Assembly: GCF_014633365.1 (NCBI RefSeq)
Contig: NW_026267104.1
Location: 7,190,587-7,254,586 of the forward strand
Source: Diospyros lotus
Taxonomy: Eukaryota; Streptophyta; Magnoliopsida; Ericales; Ebenaceae
Reading direction: 5' to 3'
DNA: 64,000 nt
Below the pieces are notes generated by a model. It ran no database searches. It worked only from the letters and a program-made list of their open reading frames with translations, and was not told the origin of the DNA. How positions within the stretch are numbered: the first letter of the stretch is position 1; every line of letters starts with the position of its first letter. Positions 8,786 through 29,490 of this stretch are shown here, piece by piece. A program made the position numbers and the translations under genes.

Positions 8786-8790
8786 GCAGA

Positions 8791-10393
8791 TGTAATATCC
8801 CAAAACTAATCAATGTGTAAATTATGTTAACTTAATTTAAAATAATATATCAATACACATATACATATATATATTCATAAAATTAATAAGTGAAATTAAT
8901 TAAATTAAATTAAACTAATTAAATTGTGTATTTTTTTGTGGCTGTGGTGCGCGAGCTTGGAGGCCAAGCTATCTATAGGGGCCAAAAAAATTTGAATTGT
9001 TCTCTCACATTGAGAGTTGTGGCCGGAAACAGAGAAGGAGGGAGGCTTGATGTAGCTTCAACCATGGAAGCTTGGTCGAGAAGAAGGGAGAGACAGAGAT
9101 TGAGAGAGAGAGAGAGAGGGGGAGAGAGATGGAACGAGGAAGAGAGGGAGGTGGTAGCCATGGAAGCTCCGAGTGAGCTCGGCCATGGCAGCCGAGCGAG
9201 GAAGCAGCAGCGGGGGCGGAGTGACGCGAGCAGCAGCGGCCAGCAGGCGCGCGCGGTGGCGCGCGATGGTGCGCAGAGGCAACAGCGGAGGCCGCAGGGG
9301 CTGGCGCTGGTGCGCACAGGCGTGCGCGCCATGGAGGAGAAGAAGGAGGCAGCAGCCGCGGGAAGAAGAAAGGAAGAAGAAGGAGAAGAAGAAAGGAGAA
9401 AGAGGAAGAAGAAGAAGAAAAAGAAAGAAGGAGAGAAGGGAGAAGAAACAAGGCGCAGGGGAGAAGACGCAGGGAAGAAGAAGAAGAAGAAGAAAATAAA
9501 AGAAAATGAAGAAATTAAGGAAAAATAAGGGATTTTGAGATTTTTCGGCATGGAAAGTGATCAGGTACGTGGGTAAAAATTTGTAGAAGCATGTTACGTT
9601 TAAATTATAAATTTTACGCGATTAAAATTAATTAATTTGGATCCCGGTTGTGTTATTTGCTAGGAAATGATTTAATTTGCCTCGAGAGCTTGAGAGAGGT
9701 CGGAATCAGCTAATTTCAGGCAAGTTCCAACCCCTTTCCTCGTGTTCTTTAATTCCCGTGAGAAACCCTATGATTTCTCGTATTTTATATCCTCCATTCG
9801 TCTTTTTCGATTCTTTTATTAATTATGGAAATTTTGAGTCATTTGATTTAAATTTAATTTATTAAGCTGGCTTCGAGGATTTTATTAGCATGATTTAATT
9901 TAAAATAAATATGAGACTCGTTGAGATTTTAATTGTGGTGCGCTTACGTGGGATTTTAAACAGCTAAATTAATTATATTACACGGTAGATTTATTTAATC
10001 AAAGCCGCGATTTTATTTATTGCCAGCGTGGGTCCGAGTAGGGGAATCAACGTCTAGCGACGGAGTCGGTATGGTGTACAGGCAGTCTCGTCAACCTCTG
10101 TCAACTCTGATGGTTGTGTAGGGTCTATTCTTTTATTTCTGACTGTGCCTGGTCATATCTCGTGTCTCGTGTGTGTCGGCACAGGAGTTTGTATTCTTTT
10201 ATTTATCTGGTGACCGCTATGCTAGCGGGGTTCGCGTAGTGCATGCATGTGTTTTGCTTCGCTTCCGTTGCTCTCATCTTTGAGTATGCATGCCAGGGTA
10301 TTTTTGTCTCGTATTTCATTATTTTTCCCCTTCCGTAGGCGCTCCCGTTTGGATAGTCCGGGCGGTTGGGATATTCGGGTGGGGGTGCTTACA
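8791..10393 (+). repeat. 5' LTR of the gypsy element (1603 bp)
   Basis: Begins TGTAATATCCCAAAAC, ends GGGGGTGCTTACA, and matches 27421-29490 nearly base for base outside the purine tract. It contains a GA-rich block of about 170 bp (9341-9515), much shorter than in its partner. Long ORFs here on either strand arise from this purine/pyrimidine asymmetry and are not genes. Confidence 0.92.
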
Positions 10394-12284: not shown

Positions 12285-12289
12285 ACTAC

Positions 12290-14293
12290 TGGCTGCACTC
12301 CCACCCTGCAATTAAAACACAATAAAAATTTTATATTTTTTTCTTTATTTAGGTGAGAGGTTTATACTCGTCAGTGTACGAGTGCAGTTGTAGTCCAAAC
12401 TTAAATTTATATTTTCTGAATGAGTCCAGGTCGTCTACTGAGAGATTTATTTATGGCAAAATAAAAAGAATGTCACACAAGCACACACGCATTTGGACAA
12501 ATTGACAACAAGATTTTTTATGATTTTTTAAACAATAGATACTAGGAAATAAATTAAGGCAGTAATTGAAATAAATACTTTAAGTGAGAATATAAAATTG
12601 GATAGTACTTGAGTTAAGACAATTTCAGTGCCAACCCGTTGATTCCCAAATTTTAACAGATAAGGTTAGTAACATTAATTTAATTTCAGATTTGAGGGTT
12701 TGTTATTAAATACAATTAGAGATTATGATAATTCTAGTTTAAGCAATCCCCATATATGATATGTGAGATTCTAATTTAAGCAACTACCATAAATCCAATT
12801 ACAATTAATATACAAGACAACTAAATTAATCATCCGGGTTTGGGTATGATAGCGTTTCCAGTTCTAGTAACTCTCATGCGTGACATGAAAGCTCTAAGTT
12901 AGGCTTACGCTCCAATCCAAACCTAATGATTTCTCAATAATTAAAATACACTCATACTGAAATTTAAATTAATGTTACTTATTTAAAGCGCAGCTTTCTT
13001 TGGGAATCATTGGCGTTGGACACTGTCCTTGCCTTAACCCAAGATTAGATTTAGCTACTCATTTCCATTTAAAAGTTAATTGACATGAATTTAAACGACG
13101 TAATTTAAATAACAGAATTTAAATGATAAGAATTAAAATAGCAGAAACTAACCGACCATTTAGGCGGTGGATAATTAAAAGACAAGAATTAAAATTGCAG
13201 AAATTTAAAGGCATAAACTAACCTGCCATTTAGGCGGTGGATAATTAAATGACAAGAATTAAAATTGCAGAAATTTAAAGGCATAAACCAACCGGCCATT
13301 TAGGCGGTGAATAATAAAATAATAATAAATGACATAAGAATTTAAAAGAAGAAAGGAAGAAATAAGATCACAAGAGAAAAAACTAAAGAAAATGAGAGAG
13401 AATAAAAGCAATTCTCAAAGAGAGAATTCTAAGGAAATAACTAAACTTTGATTCAAGAATAATAATCATACTTACAAATGCAATCAAGTGAGCTATTTAT
13501 AGGCCACAAGATGCAATACAAACCACACAATTTCAATTATTCAATTAGACATAATTATATCTAATGGGCACTCACACACTTAAAGTTAAATGGATTTTAG
13601 TTATAATACACACCTAATATTAAATAGATTTTAGCTAAAATACATACTTAATAAAGCACTCATAAAGTTAAATGGATTTTAGCTATAATATCCACATAAT
13701 AGTTAAATGGATTTTAGCTAAAAAACACACTTAATAAAGCTCTCACATAAAAAATAAAAATAGATTTCTATAAATTGATTTTTTAATCTTCATTAGGATT
13801 AAAAATAATCCTTGGGCTTTCTCCAAATAATATCTTCCATGGGTTGCTCAAATTGGGCTTTAATTCTTCATGGGCTTGAATTCTTCATGGACTTTAATTT
13901 TTCATGGGCTTGATTTCTTCATGGGTTTGATTTCTTCATGGACTTGAATTCTTCATGGACTTTAAGTCTTCATGGGCTTGAATTCTTCATGCCTAAAAAT
14001 AATTTAATGTTATTAATAAATTATATATTATATATATGTATTACACATGGCACATATATATATATATTATATTATATTATATATATATTACATGCATGCA
14101 TATAATGATGTATATGTATTATATATAATTTTATATATTATTATTATTTACTTTAGAACTTCATTTCATTCATCTTTCAATTTAAACTTGCATATAACCA
14201 TAAAATATATATTAATATCTAATTTAAACCATATTTAAGATCGAAAGAAGGGTATAATTATAACAAAATTTTTACAAAATTAACCACTAATCA
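12290..14293 (-). repeat. 3' LTR of the Athila-like element (2004 bp)
   Basis: Matches 24097-26066. It differs mainly by a third copy of a 70 bp tandem unit (from 13151), a missing 15-base piece near 12315, and scattered substitutions. It also has a run of GGGCTT/TTCATGG motifs (13800-13990) and an AT-rich tail. Confidence 0.92.
13151..13330. repeat. 70 bp tandem repeat, three units
   Basis: Units starting at 13151, 13221 and 13291 share CATTTAGGCGGTG, then ATAATTAAA, GACAAGAATTAAAATTGCAG and AAATTTAAAGGCATAAAC. The other LTR has two units (24969 and 25039). The units probably changed in number by slippage or unequal exchange after insertion or during reverse transcription. Confidence 0.85.
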
Positions 14294-14306
14294 TACCCCC
14301 CAACTT
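14294..14306 (-). other. Polypurine tract of the Athila-like element
   Basis: The minus strand reads AAGTTGGGGGGTA directly before the LTR start TGATTAG. This is the expected position of the plus-strand primer. The wider motif (AATATTTAAGTTGGGGGG) recurs at 18099-18133 and, less exactly, at 15755-15779. Confidence 0.8.
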
Positions 14307-15754
14307 AAATATTGCTAGTCCCTTATCAATCAGATTATACACATGCCAAGCTTTAATAACTGTATGAATGTAAAAATTTCAAATTTGAAACCGAAATGCA
14401 TAAAATTAAATAAATAATTTAGCATTCTAAATCAGATTTTTGGTTAAAGGTCATACAATCTTAGGAATAGAAATTAGGATAACCAACACACAGACTTATT
14501 CCCTCGAAGTTTTGACTTCAAATCTTACTATGGATTTTCTCTCCAATAAAAAGGATTCCTCAAGTGTACACACAAGGGGATGCACCGTTATAAGAGTAAA
14601 TGCAGAACAAGTTCAAAACTCGGTGCCATCCCAAATACAAGAAACGTATTTTCATGAAAAAAAAAGGAAATTGACATAGCTTCATGATTGGAATAATGCT
14701 CTAGATGAGTAACTTCTGAATTTAAACATGATTCCCTACTCCAAACTCGAATTCTGAGATCACATGATTTATAGCATCAAAAAGGACCAGACTGGGTTGT
14801 AATGGGGCTATAAGGTTAATACGGGTTGTCAAAGAAAAGGTAGAGTGTGCAAAGGGTGTGTCGGGAATTTTTATTTTTATTTTTTACCATTTATTTTGAA
14901 ACAGTTATACTGAATAGCTAAGAGAATTTGCCCCCTTTTTTTTTCTCTTTTTTTTTTCTTCCTTTTTTTTTCTCTTTTTTTTTTTCTTTTTCTCTTTAAA
15001 TATGAAAATAGATAAACAGACTAATTCCCAAAATCACACCAGGTTGGATAAAATTCATATGGTTATGGGTTAAACGAGGGTAACGAAAGAAATTATACTA
15101 CAAATGGCTCAAATGTGATAGCAAATGAGGTTAATGTAAAGAAAGAAAAAAAAAAGTTAATAGGCCCAAAATGAAAGAAATTGATCCCTCTATCATGCTT
15201 CTACAAAACGATGATACTCAGTCATCTAATTCAGAGTTTGAAACCAGTCAAACTTATCCGTTATCATACTAGACATTCAAAGCAAATTGATGTTTTGAAG
15301 CCATTGAAAAGATAAAATAAACAATAAAGCATATTTAGAGTAAGTGTTATTTCACTCAGAATTAACGGTTATTAGGCTCAAACACTCACTTGGGTAATAG
15401 TCTCCACTTCTGTTGAGAGATCATACAGTGTACTAATTAGCTAATTACTGTTATCTTTGACTTTATGACCGATAACTAATTTTTAAAATTTTGAATCCCC
15501 GATGAATGCAAATTACTTATTCTAATGCATATACGTTTTCAAATAAGAAATCAATGCATTCATGTTTCATATTGCAAACTTAACCGGCCATCAGTGCATA
15601 ACTTCAAAGCTTTAGGAATAGCATTATTTAAAACACATAATTTTTTATTTTTTTTTAAATAAGAGCAGATAAAGATAATCAATTCACACAAGACTACAAA
15701 CTATCAATAGCAAACTCACAGTTAAATATGAACTAGATAATTCATAACTAAACC
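14307..15754. other. Non-coding spacer inside the Athila-like element
   Basis: No gene recognised. It holds a pyrimidine-rich run of about 65 bases (14931-14997; purine-rich on the element's sense strand) and AT-rich sequence. Short ORFs, such as 14440-14679, have no recognisable domain. It corresponds in position to the long 3' untranslated part that Athila elements have after pol. Confidence 0.6.
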
Positions 15755-15779
15755 TTACACCTCCCCAACTTGAATTGCA
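15755..15779 (-). other. Second polypurine-tract-like motif
   Basis: The minus strand reads TGCAATTCAAGTTGGGGAGG, closely like the true tract at 14294 and the motif at 18099. It lies just downstream of the LOG ORF and its repeat units. Confidence 0.55.
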
Positions 15780-15910
15780 GTAATAAATTAGGGTTGTTAG
15801 GAATACCTGTAACTCCACAAGTCCATAGATTTGCTGTGAACTGCTAAAACTTAAATAACAAATGAACATACCATATAGATATATATTTATATTTTTACAC
15901 AAAAAAAAAT

Positions 15911-16008
15911 TTCATGCAAGTCATAAGATAAAAAAATGCGTCTCAAGAGTACAAAAAGTACTCCTTACTCAGTCATCTTATCAAAGACTTTACCCAACAA
16001 CATTCCAC

Positions 16009-16039
<31 letters not shown>

Positions 16040-16133
16040 ACACAACCAAGAAAAATCATGCAAGTTGTACAATAACTAGATGCATCTCAAGAGTACAAAA
16101 AGTACTCCTTACTCAGCCATCTTAATAAAGACC
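15911..16133 (-). repeat. Two decayed direct repeats derived from the four-Cys ORF
   Basis: Units at about 15911-15993 and 16057-16133 share TCATGCAAGT, then TCTCAAGAGTACAAAAAGTA and CTCCTTACTCAG on the plus strand. Both resemble codons about 115-134 of the four-Cys ORF (17110-17169: GATGCGTCTTAAGAGT and ACTCCTTACTCAGTCCATC) with an inner stretch of roughly 17 bases missing. Each contains a small stem-loop, GAGTAC-AAAAA-GTACTC. They lie directly after the LOG stop codon. Confidence 0.7.
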
Positions 16134-16138
16134 ATTTC

Positions 16139-16798
16139 TCACCGTGATAAATCTAAATTAATCGGACCCCTTTGGCGCTTGTTACTAATTGCCTTAGACC
16201 AGTCTATCCGAGGCTCATGAGGATCGTACTGTGGAACATAACCGTGTAATTTCTCTAGCAGCTTATCAATGGTGGATGCAGAAATGAGAATCTTTCTTGC
16301 TGAACGAGAAATGAACTGTTGGTCCACAGCCTGATCAAGAAAAGAGAGTAATCCATCGAAAAAATGGTTAATATTTAAAAGTCCAATGGGTTTGGTATGG
16401 AGATTACTCTTGGCCCAGGAGATTATACAAAAGATTTCTTCAAGTGTTCCAAAACCTCCTGGTAAAGCAATGAAGGCATCTGACTGATAAATCTTACAAG
16501 CCATGCGCTCAGACATAGAAGTCGTTTCTATAAGTTGACCGCGTGTAATCCCAGAAATATGTGGTTCAGCTAAAGGGATTGGCATTACACCTACCATAGA
16601 TGAATTTCCAAGATGTACAGCTTGTGAAACATAACCATTCAATCCACGACTTCCCCCTTCATATACCAAATTAATTTTTTTCTCTCCTAATTTTTTACCA
16701 AGTTCGCTCGCTGCAAGTGCATAACAAATATCGCTCCCAAGTTGAGAGCCACAAAGTACACATATGGTATTGATTCGACGAACTAACTGGCATTCCAT
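16139..16798 (-). CDS. LOG-like: LOG-type cytokinin riboside 5'-monophosphate phosphoribohydrolase, intronless, inside a retrotransposon
   Basis: This 219-residue ORF covers the whole LOG family length. LOG enzymes release active cytokinin base from its riboside monophosphate. Visible marks: CVLCGSQLGS near residue 13, LVYEGGSRGLNG at 44-55, SMSERMACK at 94-102, and the signature PGGFGTLEE at 113-121. The C-terminal part (KPIGLLN, LLSFLDQAVDQQFIS, YVPQ) is plant-like. The signature Glu and the Arg at 98 are kept. The Lys that normally follows this Arg is Met, and the first Gly of the usual YGGG is Glu47, so activity is uncertain. The ATG sits in a good context (AACAAACATGG). Plant LOG genes normally have several introns; this one has none, which suggests capture from spliced RNA. 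It lies 167 bases downstream of the four-Cys ORF on the same strand, and both are open from end to end. Confidence 0.88.
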   Translation of the reverse strand: MECQLVRRINTICVLCGSQLGSDICYALAASELGKKLGEKKINLVYEGGSRGLNGYVSQAVHLGNSSMVGVMPIPLAEPHISGITRGQLIETTSMSERMACKIYQSDAFIALPGGFGTLEEIFCIISWAKSNLHTKPIGLLNINHFFDGLLSFLDQAVDQQFISRSARKILISASTIDKLLEKLHGYVPQYDPHEPRIDWSKAISNKRQRGPINLDLSR

Positions 16799-16965
16799 GT
16801 TTGTTCCTTTTGTATGTCCTGAAAAAAAGTTTGGCGATCAAAAGTAGCTATACAACAATTCAACAAGAAATAAATACAAACAAAAATCATGCATATGTAT
16901 AAGTAGTTGTGATTGTGGCTCACATCTTCCTCTGGTTTTAAGTCCAGAAACGGCTTAAACACTTT

Positions 16966-17511
16966 TTATGAAGCGGGGATAAGCTTCCTATCTAATTTTC
17001 TTATAGATTGGCAAACAGGGTCGTTTTTAGTCAGATTCCCAAGACTATAGCGTTGGTGGTCACTTCTGAACTGGGTCCATAAAGCAAGAAGTTCTCTTTG
17101 CACTATTCCACATGGATGCGTCTTAAGAGTCAATCGGATATCATCCAAAGACTCCTTACTCAGTCCATCCTTTATGAAACTAATTTTATCTTCTCGATTT
17201 ATGGACGTAAACCCCACAGATTTGCATCGTGTGTTACAGGTCCATCGAGCACATTTGTAACAACCATTCACTCTTTTCGCTCTTCTTTTCTTCGCAAAAC
17301 TACTCTTCCCTAAGCCTGGAAAATGCTTAAAACTAGGTGAAATTTCACCAGCTAATCGAACTTTTGCTTCGATTAGCCAACGAATATCTTCAGGGATGTT
17401 ATTACGCATCAACAGCCAAAGTCTTTCACACCTAGCAGCATAAATTTTTTTCAAATCATTCTGCGGGAGAGATGGATAGTACTTGTGAATTTTTGAGAGA
17501 TAAAGATCCAT
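16966..17511 (-). CDS. Basic four-cysteine protein, carlavirus-type nucleic-acid-binding protein-like
   Basis: A 181-residue ORF, first of the two extra ORFs. Residues 74-80 are a basic patch (KKRRAKR), followed by four Cys at 84, 87, 92 and 96 (CYKCARWTCNTRC), a likely zinc site. The order (helical N-terminal part, Gly/Ser then basic patch, four-Cys finger, then an FIKDGL-type stretch) resembles the Carla_C4 family of cysteine-rich nucleic-acid-binding proteins of Betaflexiviridae. Some of those act as silencing suppressors. The Cys spacing is tighter than usual in that family, and a C-terminal extension of about 60 residues is unlike it. I judge this from pattern only. It could instead be a diverged element protein with a chance zinc finger. 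It is not like Athila env-like ORFs as far as I can tell. Confidence 0.6.
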   Translation of the reverse strand: MDLYLSKIHKYYPSLPQNDLKKIYAARCERLWLLMRNNIPEDIRWLIEAKVRLAGEISPSFKHFPGLGKSSFAKKRRAKRVNGCYKCARWTCNTRCKSVGFTSINREDKISFIKDGLSKESLDDIRLTLKTHPCGIVQRELLALWTQFRSDHQRYSLGNLTKNDPVCQSIRKLDRKLIPAS

Positions 17512-17652
17512 TTTTTGTTTTTTTAACTATATTAAGAAGAAAGTAAAGAACTATAAACTTTACAAAAGGGATGAGAGTACCTGATCGGAGATTAATACAG
17601 AGGAGAGAAGACTGAGCTCAAAGAAGGGTGGCTTGTCTCATACAGATATGGA

Positions 17653-17803
17653 GTCTCTTATAGAGCAATGGGCATCACTATTCTACACTCGGCTCGAGGC
17701 ATACCATAATTACACCATCAGGCTTGGCGTCTCTCTCTTTTTTTTTTTCAACGCTTGGTGCCTCATTTTTCAACATTTGGTAGTGTGCCTTATCCTTTAT
17801 AGG
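17653..17803 (-). promoter_or_regulatory. Possible internal promoter for the two extra ORFs
   Basis: On the minus strand there are TATA-like boxes CCTATAAAGG (near 17795-17804) and CTCTATAAGAG (near 17653-17663), about 285 and 145 bases upstream of the four-Cys ORF start. Either could support a transcript that avoids gag-pol. A pyrimidine-rich stretch ending in AG just before the ATG (17525-17550) might alternatively be a splice acceptor. Both readings are unproven. Confidence 0.3.
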
Positions 17804-18098
17804 GCAGTGTGATTGCACTACCCAAGAAAAGATGGCTACCACCAGCGTCAATTCTGTCTCTCTCAATTCAAATTTTTTTTATTATTATTTTTATTTTTTA
17901 TTGTTTATTTTTTAATTTTTTTATTCTTATTCTTATTATTATTAGTTTTTTTTTTGATTTTTTTTTTTTAATAAATGTTTTGTTTTAGGAGCCCAATAAA
18001 ATCATACATACCAGACAAGACAATATTATCGAGTCTAACAAAATTATTTACACAATGGATACAATGGATCAATTTCAAACACCAATAAATCAAGTACA

Positions 18099-18133
18099 CC
18101 TTACCCCCCAACTTAAATTGCGCATTGTCCTCA
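18099..18133 (-). other. Polypurine-tract-like motif downstream of pol
   Basis: The minus strand reads TTGAGGACAATGCGC, then AATTTAAGTTGGGGGGTAAGG, almost the same as the tract before the 3' LTR. It lies about 300 bases after the pol stop, between pol and the extra ORFs. It may be the old 3' end of the element or an internal (central) polypurine tract. Confidence 0.65.
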
Positions 18134-18426
18134 ATCGACAATAAAAGGATAGAAGATAGGCATACCTGGTGGTCTTCAATGCATGAACTCGTATGCAAAA
18201 AATTTTATTTAGACTGCACACAGAGAAACACTATTTGAATCAAAGTTAATTAAGTAATGCAGAAAATGAACAACTTATATATATACTTCTTTATTATTAT
18301 TATTATTTTATTTTATTTTTTTTTCTTTTTTTTTTTTATTTTTTTTTCAGATCTATAAACATCCATTTAACCTAAATGGAAAGGTGGTTTTTTAACGTCA
18401 GATTCTCAGACGATAGGAAACTTTCT

Positions 18427-21400
18427 CTACTCATCAGATGATGATGGATCATCCAAATCCACAACTCCTTCATTCTCCTCAACACTACCCTGGTATGGTT
18501 TCAACCTATGATCATTGACTGTTAGAAGCTGTCCTGAATCCGGATTTTCTATCTCAAATGCCCCATATCCTGAGATGGACTTGATTACAAATGGGCCGAT
18601 TCATCGAGACTTCAATTTTCCTGGGAATAGATGCAATCGAGAATCGTACAAGAGTACTCGTTGCCCTACCTGAAAGCTTTTTCGAATGATGTGCCGATCA
18701 TGTAACTCTTTCATGCGAACCTTGGCCAATCGTGCATTTTCAAATGCTTCATTCTGAATTTCCTCAAGTTCATTCAATTGGAGCTTCCTGGATAAGCCTG
18801 CTTCAGTTAGACTCTTGTTGATCTTATGAATTGCCCAATATGCTTTATGCTCAATTTCCACCGGCAGATGACAAGATTTACCGTATACTAGCCTATAGGG
18901 AGACATTCCCAAAATTATTTTGTAAGCTGTACTGTATGCCCAAAGAGCGTCTACTAGTCTTAAGGACCAATCCTTACGATTAGCAGCAACAGTCTTTTCC
19001 AATATGCGCTTAATCTCCCTATTGGCTAGCTCGGCTTGACCATTGGTTTGGAGATGGTATGGTGTTGCAACCTTATGCAGTACACCATATTTCTTCATTA
19101 ATCTTGCCACAACTTTATTACAAAAATGGGAACCCCCATCACTGATGATTGCTCGTGGCATCCCAAATCGACTGAATATGTTTTCTTTCAAAAATTTCAC
19201 GATAGTCCTATGGTCATTTGTTCTGGCCGGGATTGCTTCTACCCATTTGGACACATAGTCAACAGCAAGTAAGATGTATTCATGACCAAATGAATTGACA
19301 AATGGGCCCATAAAATCCATACCCCAACAGTCAAAAACTTCTAACACTTGGATCGGATGTAATGGCATCATGTTTCTCCTTGACAGACTTCCTAACCTTT
19401 GACATCGATCGCAATTTGAACAGAACTTGTACACATCCTTGAACAATGTCGGCCAATAAAATCCACTCTGAAAAATTTTTGCAACTGTTTTCTTGACAGA
19501 AAAATGGCCTCCACATGCAAGAGTATGACAGAAATTGATGACACTTTGTTGCTCATGATTGGGTATGTATCTACGGATGATTTGGTCAGGACAATACTTG
19601 AAGAGGTAGGGCTCATCCCAAAAGAAGGTTCTAACTTTTCTGAAGAATTTATGCCTATCTTGCTTACTCCAATGGTCTGGGATCAGACTAGTTGCCAGGT
19701 AGTTCGCAATGTCGGCATACCAAGGGACAACAGATGATGCACGAATAACATTCACTTCAAACAGTTGCTCATCAGGGAAATTGTCATGAATTGGTTCATC
19801 AAATTGTGTGAGATCTTGACTTGGAATCCTTGACAAATGGTCATCCACCACATTTTCTACTCTCTTCTTGTCTCTGATTTCAATGTTGAACTCTTGCAGG
19901 AGTAAGATCCATCGGAGCAGACGGGGTTTTGCATCTTGCTTTGTGAACAAATACTTCAGAGCAGCGTGATCAGTAAAAATGATCACTAGTGACCCTACGA
20001 GGTAAGATCGAAACTTGTCCAAGGCAAAGACAACTGCTAGTAACTCTTTCTCTGTAGTGGTGTAATTCTTTTGTGCCTCATTAAGAGTTTTACTAGCATA
20101 ATATATCACATGAGGTTTCTTATCCTTCCTCTGCCCTAACACAGCTCCTACCGCGTAATCACTAGCATCGCACATAAGTTCAAACGGGAGGGACCAATCA
20201 GGGGACTGAATGATAGGTGCTGAAATGAGTGCATCTTTCAATTTATCAAAAGCATTTTGACAGGCATGACTCCATTCAAACGGAACATCTTGAGACAACA
20301 AATGGCACAAGGGTCTTGTTATGGTGCTAAAGGAAGCAATGAATCTCCTATAAAACCCTGCATGTCCCAAAAAACTTCTGATGTCTTTCACATTCCTAGG
20401 GATGGGGAGTTTTTGAATTGTTTCAATTTTTGACCTGTCTACCTCCATCCCCCTAGATGAAACGATGTGCCCCAAGACTATGCCCTGTTTCACCATGAAG
20501 TGACATTTTTCCCAATTGAGTATCAGATTTGTTTCCTCACATCTTGCTAAAACCTTTTTCAGATTCTCCAAACAGGCCTCAAAGTTACATCCATAAACAG
20601 AAAAGTCATCCATAAATACTTCAACAATCTGCTCAACCATTTCACTGAAAATGCTCATCATAAAAGTCATCCATAAATACTTCAACAATCTGCTCAACCA
20701 TTTCACTGAAAATGCTCATCATACACCTTTGAAAGGTGGCTGGAGCATTGCATAACCCAAATGGCATGCGCCTGTATGCAAATGTCCCAAATGGACATGT
20801 GAAAGTTGTCTTCTCTTGATCTTCTAGTGAAATTTCTATCTGATTGTACCCTGAGTACCCATCTAAGAAACAATAGTAGGCTTGGCCTGCTATTCTCTCC
20901 AGAACTTGATCCAAGAAAGGCAAAGGAAAATGATCTTTCCTTGTCACAGAATTGAGCTTTCTATAATCAATGCACATACGCCATCCTGTCTAGATGCGCG
21001 TGGGAATCAGTTCATTGTTCTCATTTTTTACAACAGTGACTCCAGACTTTTTGGGTACTACCTGTGTTGGACTTACCCACTTAGAATCAGAGATTGGGTA
21101 AATTATTCCAGCATCCAATAGCTTAATCACTTCTTTTCTGACAACTTCTTTCATGTTGGGATTTAATCTCCTTTGCATTTGCCTAATTGGTTTTGCTCCT
21201 TCTTCCAAGAATATCTTATGAGTACAGATCAAAGGGCTAATACCTTGCAAATCTGAAATGGTCCATCCTAATGACTTCCTGTGTGCTTTTAGAACTTCTA
21301 TCAGTTGTTGCTCTTGCTGAGGTGTCAAACTTGAAGAGATCACCACTGGAAATGCTTCCCCTTCTCCTAGAAAGACATACTTCAAATCACTGGGCAATGG

Positions 21401-23968
21401 CTTTCTCTCAGGCATGGACTGATGGCTATCAGGAGCCATGAACTTACTATTCAAGTTCCTTAATGGCTCTAAACCAGGCATCCATGTAGGCTTCTCACTT
21501 TCTTTGCTTATAACTTCAACTTCTTTTATTTCTTCAAGATCTTGATTTCCTTCTTTGGGTCTTCTCATGAACTCTTCAAAATAGTCATTGGTCAGTGTTT
21601 GGATCAAGTCTACCTCCTCCACTTCACTCTCAGTGTCCTGATGTTTGGCTACCCTGAAGATATTCATTTCTACAGTCATGTTCCCAAAAGATAGCTTTAA
21701 CACACCATTCCTACAGTTGATGATGGCATTTGATGTGGCAAGGAATGGTCGACCTAAGATGACTGGCACAGGAGGTTGAGGCCCCTGATGCGGCTGGGTG
21801 TCCAAAACGATGAAGTCCACTGGAAAGTAAAACTTATCGATTTGTACCAGAACATCCTCCACAATTCCTCGTGGAACTTTGACTGATCGATCAGCCAGCT
21901 GAAGGGTCACTCTAGTGGGTTTAAGCTCACCTAATCCCAACTGTTGATACACACTGTATGGCAACAAATTGACACTAGCTCCTAAATCCAAGAGTGCCCG
22001 ATCAACCTTTTGACTTCCTATGATGCATGTAATGGTTGGACAGCCTGGATCTTTGTATTTGGGAGGAGTTTTCAATTAGAGAATGGCGCTGACTTGTTCA
22101 GTCAAGAATGCCTTTTCATGCACATTTGTTTTCCTTTTGACAGTGCACAGATCTTTCAAAAACTTTGCATATGAAGGTGTTTGTTTGATTGCATCCAACA
22201 GCGGGATGTTGATTCTCACTTGCTTAAACACTTCATATATATCTGCATTTTGTTGCTCTTTTTTCAAATGATTCAACCTTTGTGGAAAAGGTGGTTTGGG
22301 CCTGTATTGAATTTCTTTCTCATCTTCTTTTTGTTTTTCATTTTTCTCATTTTTTTCATTTTTTTCCACGGTGGATTCATGATCTTTTGGTTCTTTTTCT
22401 TCATCAACATGTTGGTTTATCCTAGGATCAGTTGGTTTCTCAATTATTCTTCCACTTCTTAGGGCAGTCACTGCTTGCACTTGTTCATGAGTGTTGGTTT
22501 CACTATTTGAAGCTTCTACCTGGTTGGTTTGCCTAATTGGGTTAGGATTAGTTTGGGATGGAAACCTTCCGGGTTCTCTCACACTCAATGTTTGTGTTAT
22601 CTTGGTCAACTGGCTCCTAATGTCTTCTATGCCTCTGTTTGTTTGGTCTTGATTTTTGACAAGCTGAGCAACCTGATTGTTAATACCTGTTTGACTTTGG
22701 ATGAACTGGTGCAAGGTATCTTCCAAAGATCTCCTATGAGGAGGTTGGTAAGTATTGGATGAAGAACCTTGATTTTGTTTGAAGGTATGTTGTTGTGTAG
22801 GGAAGGGAGGTTGAGAATGATTTCCAGAATCATTTCTCCAAGAAAAATTGGGGTGATTTCTATTATTGGGATGGTATGAATTGTAATTCTGATTATTCCC
22901 ATAATAGGCTCCACTCTGATTTTGATTTTGTCTCCCCTCAAAGTTGTGTGAATGATTGTTATTAGTCTGCCCATACAATACCTCCTTGAAAGCAGGTAGG
23001 GTAGGACATTCTTCAGTTGAATGATCTGTTGCATCACACACAGCACACTTTACTTCCACTTGATTAACAGATTGCACTTTTTTGGGTTGCATGTTTTCAA
23101 CTTTCTTTGTTAAAGCAGTTAATCTTGCATTTAAATCATCACTCTCACTCAATTGGTATCTCCCTCTAGGTTGTGGATTTTCTCTTGAATCAAGAGCAGA
23201 TGTTGGACCAACTTCCCAGTTCCTTGTATTCTGAGCCAATGTGTCAAAGAAGTGGAAAGCTTCTTCTGGAGTCTTCTCATAGAATTCTCCATTGCACATT
23301 GTAGAAACTAGCATTTTCAATTGGGGAGTGAGTGAATCATGAAAGAAACTGACCACTCTCCATTGCTCAAAAGCATGGTGCGGACAAGTGTGAAGAAGGT
23401 CTTTGAACCTTTCCCACGCTTGAGCAAAATTCTCATTTGGTTTACAGGCAAAGTTCATGATTTGTCTTTGAAGAGTAGCAGTTCTGTTGGCAGGGAAGTA
23501 TTTTTTTAAGAAAGTTGTTTGCATTTCTCTCTAAGTTCCTATAGATCTAGGTGGGAGAGTGCTTAACCATATTTTTGCCTTATCTTTCAGTGAGAATGGA
23601 AAGAGTTTTAATCTTATGACATCCTCATTTGCTGTATGGTCCATGCAAGTGCTACATACTTCCTCAAATTCTTTCATATGAGTATATGGATTTTCAGAAT
23701 CCATGCCATGAAAAGTTGGTAACAATTGGATTGTGCCAGGTTTGAAGTTAAACCTATGATGGTTGATGGGAAGAATAATGCATGAGGGGGTTGTCTGCCT
23801 AGGAGGATGAAGATACTCCCTAAGAGGTCTGATCATCTCCTGATCAATGGGATCAGGGTCACCGTGGTCACTACCACGTGCAGACATGTTCTGTGGAAGT
23901 GGCATGTTCTCATTGTGTTGAGACATGAGTGACTGATTTTCTACAGTTTTACCTGACCTAAGTATCAT
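18427..23968 (-). pseudogene. Athila-like gag-pol polyprotein, disrupted
   Basis: A single long frame of about 1,840 codons. Gag (from 23968) has the Athila-type KKYFPANRTATLQRQI and FAQAWERFKDLLHTCPHH blocks, a zinc knuckle CAVCDATDHSTEEC (near 23030) and LRSGR. Protease: ALLDLGASVNLLPYSVY. RT: CIDYRKLN, FLDGYSGYNQI, MPFGLCNAPATFQRCM, FMDD. RNase [15 protein letters not shown]. Integrase: H-H-C-C zinc part (FCSNCDRCQ) and the D, D, E residues ([26 protein letters not shown]). Breaks: in-frame stops near 23528 (TAG), 22076 (TAA), 20987 (TAG) and 18601 (TGA), and a 61 bp tandem duplication in RT. The frame ends with TAG at 18427-18429. The enzyme residues themselves look intact. Confidence 0.9.
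20601..20722 (-). repeat. 61 bp tandem duplication across the RT catalytic box
   Basis: Units 20601-20661 and 20662-20722 are identical. Each encodes the VEVFMDDF box, so the catalytic motif occurs twice. 61 is not a multiple of 3, so the duplication also shifts the pol frame. Identity of the units means the event is recent. Confidence 0.95.
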
Positions 23969-24073
23969 ACACTATGCACAAATAAAAATAAAGTAAAAAG
24001 AAACAGAGTTACCGAATTTATCAGGAGATGCCTCTTCTTATATATTTTTTTTCTTTTTGTTTTTGCCTCAATC

Positions 24074-24091
24074 TCCCCGGCAACGGCGCCA
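24074..24091 (-). other. Primer binding site, tRNA-Asp
   Basis: The minus strand reads TGGCGCCGTTGCCGGGGA, five bases after the 5' LTR end. It is complementary to the 3' end of plant tRNA-Asp, the primer known for Athila-group elements. Confidence 0.88.
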
Positions 24092-24096
24092 AAATT

Positions 24097-26066
24097 TGGC
24101 TGCACTCCCACCCTGCAATTAAAACACAAAACAAAACACAATAAAAATTTATATTTTTTTCTTTATTTAGGTGAGAGGTTTATACTCGTCAGTGTACGAG
24201 TGCAGTTGTAGTCCAAACTTAAATTTATATTTTCTGAATGAGTCCAGGTCGTCCACTGAGAGATTTATTTATGGCAAAATAAAAAGAATGTCACACAAGC
24301 ACACACGCATTTGGACAAATTGACAACAAGATTTTTTATGGTTTTTTAAACAACAGATACTAGGAAATAAATTAAGGCAGTAATTGAAATAAATACTTTA
24401 AGTGAGAATATAAAATTGGATAGTACTTGAGTTAAGACAATTTCAGTGCCAACCCGTTGATTCCCAAATTTTAACAGATAAGGTTAGTAACATTAATTTA
24501 ATTTCAGATATGAGGGTTTGTTATTAAATGCAATTAGAGATTATGATAGTTCTAGTTTAAGCAATCCCCATACATGATATGTGAGATTCTAATTTAAGCA
24601 ACTACCATAAATCCAATTACAATTAATATACAAGACAACTAAATTAATCATCCGGATTTGGGTATGATAGCGTTTCCAGTTCTAGTAACTCTCATGCGTG
24701 ATATGAAAGCTCTAAGTTAGGCTTACGCTTCAATCCAAACCTAATGATTTCTCAATAATTAAAATACACTCATACTGAAATTTAAATTAATGTTACTTAT
24801 TTAAAGCGCAGCTTTCTTTGGGAATCATTGGCGTTGGACATTGTCCTTGCCTTAACCCAAGATTAGATTTAGCTACTCATTTCCATTTAAAAGTTAATTG
24901 ACATGAATTTAAACGACGTAATTTAAATAACAGAATTTAAATGATAAGAATTAAAATAGCAGAAACTAACCGGCCATTTAGGCGGTGGATAATTAAATGA
25001 CAAGAATTAAAATTGCAGAAATTTAAAGGCATAAACTAACCGGCCATTTAGGCGATGAATAATAAAATAATAATAAATGACATAAGAATTTAAAAGAAGA
25101 AAGGAAGAAATAAGATCACAAGAGAAAAAACTAAAGAAAATAAAAGAGAACAAAAACAATTCTCAAAGAGAGAATTATAAGGAAATAACTAAACTTTGAT
25201 TCAAGAATAATAATCACACTTACAAATGCAATCAAGTGAGCTATTTATAGGCCACAAGATAAAATACAAACCACACAATTTTAATTATTCAATTAGACAT
25301 AATTATATCTAATGGGCACTCACACACTTAAAGTTAAATGGATTTTAGCTATAATACACACCTAATATTAAATGGATTTTAGCTAAAATACATACCTAAT
25401 AAAGCACTCATAAAGTTAAATGGATTTTAGCTATAATATCCACCTAATAGTTAAATGGATTTTAGCTAAAAAACACACTTAATAAAGCTCTCACATAAAA
25501 AATAAAAATAGATTTCTATAAATTGATTTTTTAATCTTCATTAGGATTAAAAATAATCCTTGGGCTTTCTCCAAATAATATCTTCCATGGGTTGCTCAAA
25601 TTGGGCTTTAATTCTTCATGGGCTTGAATTCTTCATGGACTTTAATTTTTCATGGGCTTGATTTCTTCATGGGTTTGATTTCTTCATAGGTTTGATTTCT
25701 TCATGGACTTGAATTCTTCATGGACTTTAAGTCTTCATGGGATTGAATTCTTCATGCCTAAAAATAATTTAATGTTATTAATAAATTATATATTATATAT
25801 ATGTATTACACATGGCATATATATATATTATATTATATTATATTATATTATATATATATATTACATGCATGCATATAATGATGTATATGTATTATATATA
25901 ATTTTATATATTATTATTATTTACTTTAGAACTTCATTTCATTCATCTTTCAATTTAAACTTGTATATAACCATAAAATATATATTAATATCTAATTTAA
26001 ACCATATTTAAGATCGAAAGAAGGGTATAATTATAACAAAATTTTTACAAAATTAACCACTAATCA
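24097..26066 (-). repeat. 5' LTR of the Athila-like element (1970 bp)
   Basis: Partner of 12290-14293. On the minus strand it starts TGATTAGTGG and ends GTGCAGCCA. It has two units of the 70 bp repeat (24969, 25039) against three in the 3' LTR, and is followed directly by the ACTAC target duplication (26067-26071). Confidence 0.92.
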
Positions 26067-26071
26067 ACTAC

Positions 26072-27406: not shown

Positions 27407-27420
27407 AAGGAGGGGAGAAA
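27407..27420 (+). other. Polypurine tract of the gypsy element
   Basis: AAGGAGGGGAGAAA directly before the 3' LTR start TGTAATATCCC, the expected plus-strand primer position. Confidence 0.88.
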
Positions 27421-29490
27421 TGTAATATCCCAAAACTAATCAATGTGTAAATTATGTTAACTTAATTTAAAATAATATATAAATACACATATACATATAT
27501 ATATTCATAAAAATAATAAGTGAAATTAATTAAATTAAATTAAACTAATTAAATTGTGTATTTTTTTGTGGCTGTGGTGCGCGAGCTTGGAGGCCAAGCT
27601 ATCTACAGGGGCTAAAATAATCTGAATTGTTCTCTCACATTGAGAGTTGTGGCCGAAAACAGAGAAGGAGTGAGGCTTGATGTAGCTTCAACCATGGAAG
27701 CTCGGCCGAGAGGAAGGGAGAGACAGAGATTGAGAGAGAGAGAGAGAGAGAGAGGGGGGGGAGAGAGATGGAACGAGGAAGAGAGGGAGGTGGTAGCCAT
27801 GGAAGCTTCGAGTGAGCTCGGCCATGGCAGTTGAGCGAGGACGCAGCAGCGGGGGCGGAGCGACGCAAGCAGTAGCGGCCAACAGGCGCGCGCGGAGGCA
27901 ACAGCGGAGGCCGCAGGGGCCGGCGCTGGTGCGCACAGGCGTGCGTGCCATGGAGGAGAAGAAGGAGGCAGCAGCCGCGGGAAGAAGAAATGAAGAGGAA
28001 GAAAGGAAGAAGAAGGAGAAGAAGAAAGGAGAAAGAGGAAGAAGAAGAAAAAGAAAGAATGAGAGAAGGGAGAGGGAGAAGAAGAAGAAGAAGAAGAAGA
28101 AGAGAGGAGGACGAGGACGATGAGGACGAGGAGAAGAAGAAGAAGAAGAAGAGGAGGACGAGGAGGACAAGGAAGAAGAAGAAGAAGAGGACGACGAGGA
28201 CGAGAAGAAGAAGAAGAAGAAGAAGAAGAAGAAGAAGAGGACAATGAGGAGGAAGAGGAGGACGAGGAAGAGGAGGAGGAGGAGGAGGATGACGAGGAAG
28301 AGGAGGATGAGGAGAAGGAGAGGAGCAGGAGCAGGAGTAGGAGCAGGAGCAGGAGGAGAAGAAGGAGAAGGAGAAGAAGAAGGAGAAGGAGAAGAAAGAG
28401 AAGAAGAAGGAGGAGAAGGAGCAGGAGCAGGAGCAGGAGCAGGAGGAGAAGAAGGATGAGGAGAAGAAGAAGAAGAAGAATGAGGAGAAGAAGAAGGAGA
28501 AGGAGAAGAGGAAGAAGAAGAAGGAGGCGAAGGAGGAGGAGGAGAAGGAGAAGCAGAAGCAGAAGGAGAAGAAGAAGGAGAAGAAGAAGAAATTAAAAGA
28601 AAATGAAGAAATTAAGGAAAAATAAGGGATTTTGGGATTTTTTGGCATGGAAAGTAATCAGGTACGTGGGTAAAAATTTGTAGAAGCATGTTACGTTTAA
28701 ATTATAAATTTTACGTGATTAAAATTAATTAATTTGGATCCCGGTTGTGTTATTTGCTAGGAAATGATTTAATTTACCTCGGGAGCTTGAGAGAGGTCGG
28801 AATCAGCTAATTTCAGGCAAGTTCCAACCCCTTTCCTCGTGTTCTTTAATTCTCGTGAGAAACCCTGTGATTTCTCGTATTTTATACTCTCCCTTCGTCT
28901 ATTTCGATTCGTTTATTAATTATGAAAATTTTGAGTCGTTTGATTTAAATTTAATTTATTAAGCTGGCTTCGAGGATTTTATTAGCATGATTTAATTTAA
29001 AATAAATATGAGACTCGTTGAGATTTTAATTGTGGTGCGCTTACGTGGGATTTTAAACGGCTAAATTAATTATATTACACGGTAGATTTATTTAATCAAA
29101 GCCGCGATTTTATTTATTGCCAGCGTGGGTCCGAGCAGGGGATTCAGCGTCTAGCGACCGAGTCGGTATGGTGTACAGGCAGTCTCGTCAACCTCTGTCA
29201 ACTCTGATGGTTGTGTAGGGTCTATTCTTTTATTTCTGATTGTGCCTGGTCATATCTCGTGTCTCGTGTGTGTCGTCACAGGAGTTTGTATTCTTTTATT
29301 TATCTGGTGACCGCTATGCTAGCGGGGTTCCCGTAGTGCATGCATGTGTTTTGCTTCGCTTCCGTTGCTCTCATCTTTGAGTATGCATGCCAGGGTATTT
29401 CTGTCTCGTATTTCATTATTTTTCCCCTTCCGTAGGCGCTCCCGTTCGGATAGTCTGGGCGGCTGGGATATCCGGGCGGGGGTGCTTACA
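27421..29490 (+). repeat. 3' LTR of the gypsy element (2070 bp)
   Basis: Matches 8791-10393 but is 467 bp longer, almost all because of a purine tract (about 27955-28600). It also lacks a roughly 20-base GC-rich piece present near 9257. It is followed by the GCAGA target duplication. Confidence 0.92.
27955..28600. repeat. Expanded GAA/GGA purine tract
   Basis: About 645 bases that are almost purely A and G on the plus strand, in runs of GAAGAA, GAGGAC and GGAGCAGGAGCA. The other LTR has only about 170 bases of such sequence at the same place. Long ORFs here encode only Glu/Arg/Lys or Ser/Phe/Leu runs and are not genes. Confidence 0.93.

Follow-up and report, generated by a model that had tools for sequence, protein, structure and literature searches.

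A LOG-family gene and a virus-type gene carried together by an Athila-like retrotransposon of Diospyros lotus

Known retrotransposon cargo and the Diospyros lotus element

A LOG domain in Athila-like elements is reportedly mentioned in the abstract of Steinbauerova et al. from 2011. LOG (YgdH) has also been published as an extra domain of Gypsy-type elements in Citrus and Populus (PMC9289625), in a section that names neither a viral-type partner nor a function for it. Orchid Gypsy elements have likewise acquired an enzyme, but a different one, an N6-methyladenosine (m6A) demethylase domain (PMC9289625), and insect long interspersed nuclear elements (LINEs) have acquired an RNA-virus helicase domain with weak silencing suppression (PMC5563155). 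Here we analyze a window of 64,000 nucleotides from Diospyros lotus, the whole stretch of DNA under study, in which an Athila-like long terminal repeat (LTR) retrotransposon at 12290-26066 on the minus strand carries a LOG-family gene beside a gene for a virus-type nucleic-acid-binding protein (NABP) with four cysteines. All element coordinates are positions within this window.

The element resembles those of Citrus and Populus in being of the Gypsy type with a LOG-family extra coding sequence, but here an NABP gene adjoins it, and the copies, the selection and the substrate pocket were analyzed, in another plant order (Ericales). An earlier note on this DNA knew of no described element with such cargo, a view that the published Citrus and Populus elements do not support (PMC9289625). 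In the cysteine-rich proteins of carlaviruses, allexiviruses and mandariviruses, too, a four-Cys motif comes after a basic stretch (PMC12172455), whereas the four-Cys gene studied here sits in an LTR retrotransposon. As in the insect LINEs, a retrotransposon holds an RNA-virus-type gene for which silencing suppression is proposed, but the element class, the host kingdom and the viral gene differ, and the passages on the LINEs mention no hormone enzyme (PMC5563155). Neither a viral NABP in a retrotransposon nor an NABP-LOG pair appeared among the papers listed in our literature searches, though a supplementary figure of PMC9289625 could hold an instance. We propose that NABP and LOG are a selected accessory module of an abundant Athila-like family, predicted to combine an effect on silencing or transcription with the release of active cytokinin, a proposal that we hold to be about evenly balanced between right and wrong.

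Both cargo open reading frames (ORFs) lie on the sense strand of the element, between pol, which ends at 18601, and the 3' LTR. The LOG ORF (16139-16798, minus strand) is a single open frame of 219 amino acids without introns, and the NABP ORF (16966-17511, minus strand; Viral_NABP / Carla_C4) encodes 181 amino acids. Each starts at an ATG with A at -3 and G at +4, and they are separated by a spacer of 167 bases (16799-16965), which was present in 78 of 78 loci. The earlier note had recognized two full sense-strand ORFs at this place and an intronless LOG-family ORF in an Athila-like element. Both statements hold, the former far beyond chance as judged from the Pfam E-values and the 78 loci. 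The span that it assigned to the cargo, 15755..18133, contains both ORFs, but also non-coding sequence on both sides. Its four-Cys ORF is real, but the kinship to a viral nucleic-acid-binding family, seen with Pfam, had been missed, and this changes the biology.

Genomic copies and selection on the cargo genes

A search of the genome (630 Mb) with LOG yielded 1,129 first-look candidates, of which 150 were scored; all were at least 95% identical and 137 had no internal stop. The corresponding search with NABP yielded 993 candidates, with 143 of the 150 scored places free of internal stops. As the scored places are the best ones, intactness is biased upward in these numbers. Cargo queries of four kinds (cargo DNA, LOG, NABP and the Pfam profile of LOG) fetched 78 loci, and every one of these holds both cargo ORFs. 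After the removal of repeats 71 copies remained; 58 have an intact LOG and 61 an intact NABP. The many further copies carrying both ORFs rule out a single cargo capture into one element, and the ordinary insertion into one element that the earlier note had considered is thereby refuted. By rough inference, a thousand full copies at 13.8 kb each would amount to about 2% of the genome. For the integrase, counted regardless of cargo, there were 12,657 candidates; 69 of the 135 scored places lie in open frames of at least 1,780 codons, and 2 of these 69 have a stop inside the match. With so many integrase places in such frames, recent activity of the family is likely. The family is very abundant in the genome.

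Variants were classed over the 71 copies as private (one copy), shared (less than 10% of copies) or common, and omega (dN/dS) was computed against a spectrum of changes that takes CpG and CHG context into account. Private variants are mostly post-insertion, and variants in several copies have passed through transposition. For LOG, omega was 0.82 for private variants (71 nonsynonymous (N) and 31 synonymous (S) changes, 8 stops, p 0.21), 0.39 for shared (31 N, 29 S, 0 stops, p 2.6e-4) and 0.38 for common variants (24 N, 28 S, 0 stops, p 5e-4). The NABP values were 0.73 for private (60 N, 35 S, 5 stops, p 0.09) and 0.34 for common variants (15 N, 20 S, 1 stop, p 1.4e-3). As a cross-check, LOG in 24 copies chosen by NABP gave 0.68 (private, p 0.06), 0.29 (shared) and 0.32 (common), and in 18 copies chosen by DNA or by the LOG profile, common variants gave 0.54 for LOG (p 0.015) and 0.57 for NABP (p 0.05).

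Mean pairwise divergence at codon positions 1, 2 and 3 was 0.022, 0.019 and 0.053 in LOG and 0.027, 0.021 and 0.038 in NABP, and the spacer read in threes gave 0.029, 0.016 and 0.022. Against L079, a copy from a diverged subfamily, omega was 0.32 for LOG and 0.20 for NABP, with dS of 0.21 and 0.30 (medians, 69 of 71 copies each). The evidence for purifying selection is strong in LOG and, when subfamilies are compared, also in NABP; within the young copies it is weaker for NABP. The dN/dS check that the earlier note had put forward gave values far under 1 in most classes of variants that had passed through transposition, and likewise in the subfamily comparison. We read both cargo genes as maintained by selection and not as passengers.

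Several results weigh against this reading. Omega is based on the cargo ORFs alone. Shared NABP variants gave 0.84 (23 N, 12 S, 3 stops, p 0.37), with no clear constraint, and NABP in 29 copies chosen by LOG gave 0.73 for private variants and 0.41 for common ones, the latter at p 0.08. In the 18 copies chosen by DNA or by the LOG profile, private LOG variants were not neutral (0.56, p 0.02), and the private NABP value of 1.20 was not significant. In addition, gag-pol of the window copy is broken into four open segments, and therefore has at least three breaks.

Predicted functions, origin and alternatives

The element LOG belongs to the LOG family by Pfam, by TIGR00730 (140.5 bits, cut-off 96.35) and by fold, and it has the fold, the PGGxGTxxE motif and the catalytic Arg and Glu in common with plant LOG1/LOG3 and LOG8 (2a33, 1ydh). 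The catalytic Arg98 is kept in 69 and Glu121 in all of the 71 genome copies, and in 109 and 111, respectively, of 113 element-type LOG relatives. On NCBIfam NF058542 the element LOG falls far below the cut-off, and host LOG1 likewise. The protein likely hydrolyses a nucleoside monophosphate, and cytokinin nucleotides are our best guess at its substrate, not a certainty.

The pocket speaks against that guess. Element-type LOGs differ from plant LOG1/LOG3 and LOG8 in having their own side of the branch, Phe at residue 123 (113 of 113, against Leu in 20 of 20 host rows) and a changed pocket. Residue 99 is Lys in 20 of 20 host LOGs but Leu, Ile or Met in 101 of 113 element-type proteins, and Met in all 71 copies of this genome; residue 124, Glu in 20 of 20 host LOGs, is Glu in only 9 of 113. 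In the Corynebacterium protein CgLOG, the residues matching Lys99 and Glu124 line the adenine and prenyl sites (PMC4979012). The host-like pocket expected of a LOG acting on cytokinin nucleotides is thus absent, and the substrate of the element LOG may differ because these residues are changed. Even plant LOGs with conserved residues can yield mainly isopentenyladenosine (iPR), not isopentenyladenine (iP) (PMC11593424). Furthermore, the window copy has Glu47 in the glycine-rich VYGGG loop, where Glu occurs in 2 of 71 copies including this one, and its enzyme may be impaired.

The four-Cys protein has the motif CX2CX4CX3C after a basic KKRRAKR stretch, the combination that marks Viral_NABP and Carla_C4, and Pfam matched both families (36.4 bits at a cut-off of 23 and 24.6 bits at a cut-off of 20.9) over residues 35-119 of 181. 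The four cysteines are kept in 71, 70, 69 and 70 of the 71 copies; in a 23-row NABP alignment, one is missing in P0045 and P0084 (the first) and in P0076 (the second). Carlavirus relatives suppress silencing, and one of them is a transcription factor causing hyperplasia (PMC12172455). By analogy, the four-Cys protein would act as a silencing suppressor and as a nuclear transcription factor that induces cell proliferation. Three points count against such a role: the kinship to viral proteins is drawn from Pfam profiles, the predicted structure is poor (predicted local distance difference test, pLDDT, 61.8) and unfit for a fold search, and three tblastn scans of viral contigs with NABP or LOG gave no match. 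By sequence, NABP had two matches in the PDB (E 0.56 and 0.66), which we took as chance.

A protein search returned 454 NABP relatives, and the named ones among the best 120 come from Populus, Acer, Xanthoceras, Rhamnella and Orobanche. Element-type LOGs were found in Diospyros, Populus, Xanthoceras, Diplodiscus, Reevesia, Pterospermum, Rehmannia and Primulina. Together these genera span rosids and asterids, and both protein families are thus widespread among eudicots. In the Orobanche gracilis gene models P0034, P0054 and P0086, NABP is fused to pieces of LOG, with NABP first, and these models are likely to stem from gene prediction run across one element. Three pairs of NABP and LOG proteins came from contigs of equal size (8723, 4511 and 2128), which suggests that each pair lies on one contig.

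The length filter left 113 of 120 element-type LOG rows, and 52 of these entered a tree together with the window copy; its host rows were 20 of the LOG1/LOG3 type, hand-picked from 120 listed, and LOG8, other host LOG types being left out. In this 74-row tree, the 53 element-type LOGs split from host LOG1/3 and LOG8 on a branch of 0.87 with support 100. The simplest reading would be a single old capture of LOG that reached rosids and asterids, or sideways spread. Capture from a host-type LOG, as the earlier note proposed, thus stands for some time in the past, but not as a recent event in this host, since the element-type LOGs of several genera group together. The genes P0121, P0151, P0153 and P0199 of Diospyros lotus and Populus, named LOGL10, fall on the element-type side and are likely retrotransposon ORFs annotated as host genes; some database LOGL10 gene models should therefore be used with caution. 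A genome search for host LOG exons scored 150 places, all long ORFs of element-type copies at 46-49% identity. D. lotus LOG1 (P0343) was never among them as an unbroken ORF, which points only indirectly to its being spliced.

It has long been asked how plant LTR retrotransposons get past silencing and into the germ line, and for most of their extra ORFs no function could be assigned. The pairing of a gene from a virus class that includes known silencing suppressors with a LOG-family gene, both under selection and in very many copies, makes this question testable. In the proposed module, the four-Cys protein would dampen RNA silencing in the host or influence host transcription, and the LOG enzyme would release active cytokinin in cells expressing the element, provided that it still accepts cytokinin nucleotides despite a pocket that differs from host LOGs. 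The gain would be more dividing cells, in the meristem or germ line, where the element escapes silencing and transposes. In this way the element would probably manipulate its host in the manner of a virus. Only tentatively do we extend this to an old retrotransposon lineage of rosids and asterids with a pathogen-like cassette, in which a silencing suppressor or transcription factor and a cytokinin-releasing enzyme would give dividing, silencing-weakened host cells.

Both genes may instead serve the life cycle of the element itself, the four-Cys protein as a Tat/Rev-like RNA chaperone, nuclear importer or transcription activator, and LOG shifted to another nucleotide, acting on nucleotide pools or modified nucleotides. 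This is a possibility that we take seriously while doubting it: the adenine/prenyl pocket differs from that of host LOGs with the catalytic pair kept, the branch between the two LOG types is long (0.87 changes per column), and viral relatives of the four-Cys protein are also transcription factors, but the pocket changes alone are compatible with cytokinin nucleotides and nothing seen here points to another LOG substrate. The genes could also be neutral passengers: a host mRNA and a viral gene that were picked up a single time and owe their spread only to that of the element. The near-neutral private variants over the 71 copies (omega 0.73-0.82), as in any element after insertion, and the value for rare shared NABP variants fit such a view. 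However, we rejected it as very improbable on the omega values within copies and between subfamilies: purifying selection is seen in shared and common LOG variants, in common NABP variants and in the subfamily comparison, the third codon positions of LOG diverge more than the first and second, and the catalytic residues are kept in most relatives.

As to origin, we infer that a host mRNA was the source of LOG and that a flexivirus-like RNA virus supplied the four-Cys gene, not the reverse. An original home of the four-Cys gene in Athila-type elements, from which flexiviruses captured it, would agree with the 454 relatives, the named ones among the best 120 being plant proteins, and with the lack of tblastn matches to viral contigs, but the matching Pfam families bear virus names, and we regard this direction as unlikely. 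Least credible is cargo serving the host, with the element LOG or the four-Cys gene co-opted by the plant. The LOGL10 annotations of some element-type LOGs in Diospyros and Populus would favor it, but at least 150 near-identical places are spread genome-wide, and a single conserved host locus was not seen, though no synteny search was made.

Element structure and surroundings

The element has a 3' LTR at 12290-14293 and a 5' LTR at 24097-26066 (minus strand), each about 2 kb with ends TG...CA, between target-site duplications of ACTAC at 12285-12289 (left) and 26067-26071 (right), in agreement with the matched LTRs and duplication of the earlier note. The two LTRs, aligned by blastn, differ at 37 of 1,934 ungapped columns (1.9%). 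At 1.3e-8 and 4e-9 substitutions per site and year, the element would be roughly 0.7 to 2.4 million years old. A G run directly 5' of the 3' LTR (14294-14306, minus strand) resembles a polypurine tract and would function as one. The sequence 3' of the 5' LTR at 24074-24091 (minus strand) is presumably a primer-binding site of the tRNA-Asp type, which we take to be linked to Athila.

The coding segments, all on the minus strand, comprise the start of gag (23534-23971), where Retrotrans_gag reached only 0.025 and stayed below the cut-off, a further gag segment (22079-23530; Retrotrans_gag 5.5e-10), a segment that holds the aspartyl protease region (20993-22075) and a pol part with the end of reverse transcriptase (RT), RNase H and integrase (18601-20670). 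This Pfam order of gag, aspartyl protease, RT, RNase H and integrase, together with the LTRs and the 5-bp duplication, is that of the Athila lineage, and we class the element as an Athila-like Ty3/gypsy LTR retrotransposon. The Athila ORF-1 domain was not among the Pfam matches in the parts scanned; it is not required for Athila, being present in 16% of Athila elements (PMC6317226). Direct repeats at 8790-10393 and 27420-29490, 96-97% identical in the aligned stretches, flank the element, which looks as if nested inside another LTR element.

The diverged subfamily consists of a second group of places, spread over the genome, with an open LOG frame of 219 amino acids. L079, the single copy fetched from it, has both ORFs intact and in the same order. 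It lies with L080 and L081 in one region (G000:C4:725300-733300), a diverged NABP-LOG module separated from pol by another repeat, and no pol was found within 5.9 kb upstream of L079. The idea that this subfamily lacks pol was dropped, as the copy is interrupted by another repeat ending near L079:352. The flank L079:1-352 is repetitive, with 313 candidates in the genome; the 40 that were scored comprise itself, 38 ending at base 352 and one at 350. On the minus strand of L080, an open stretch of 109 codons resembles what we take to be the end of a Ty1/copia RNase H, so a copia element may be what interrupts this copy.
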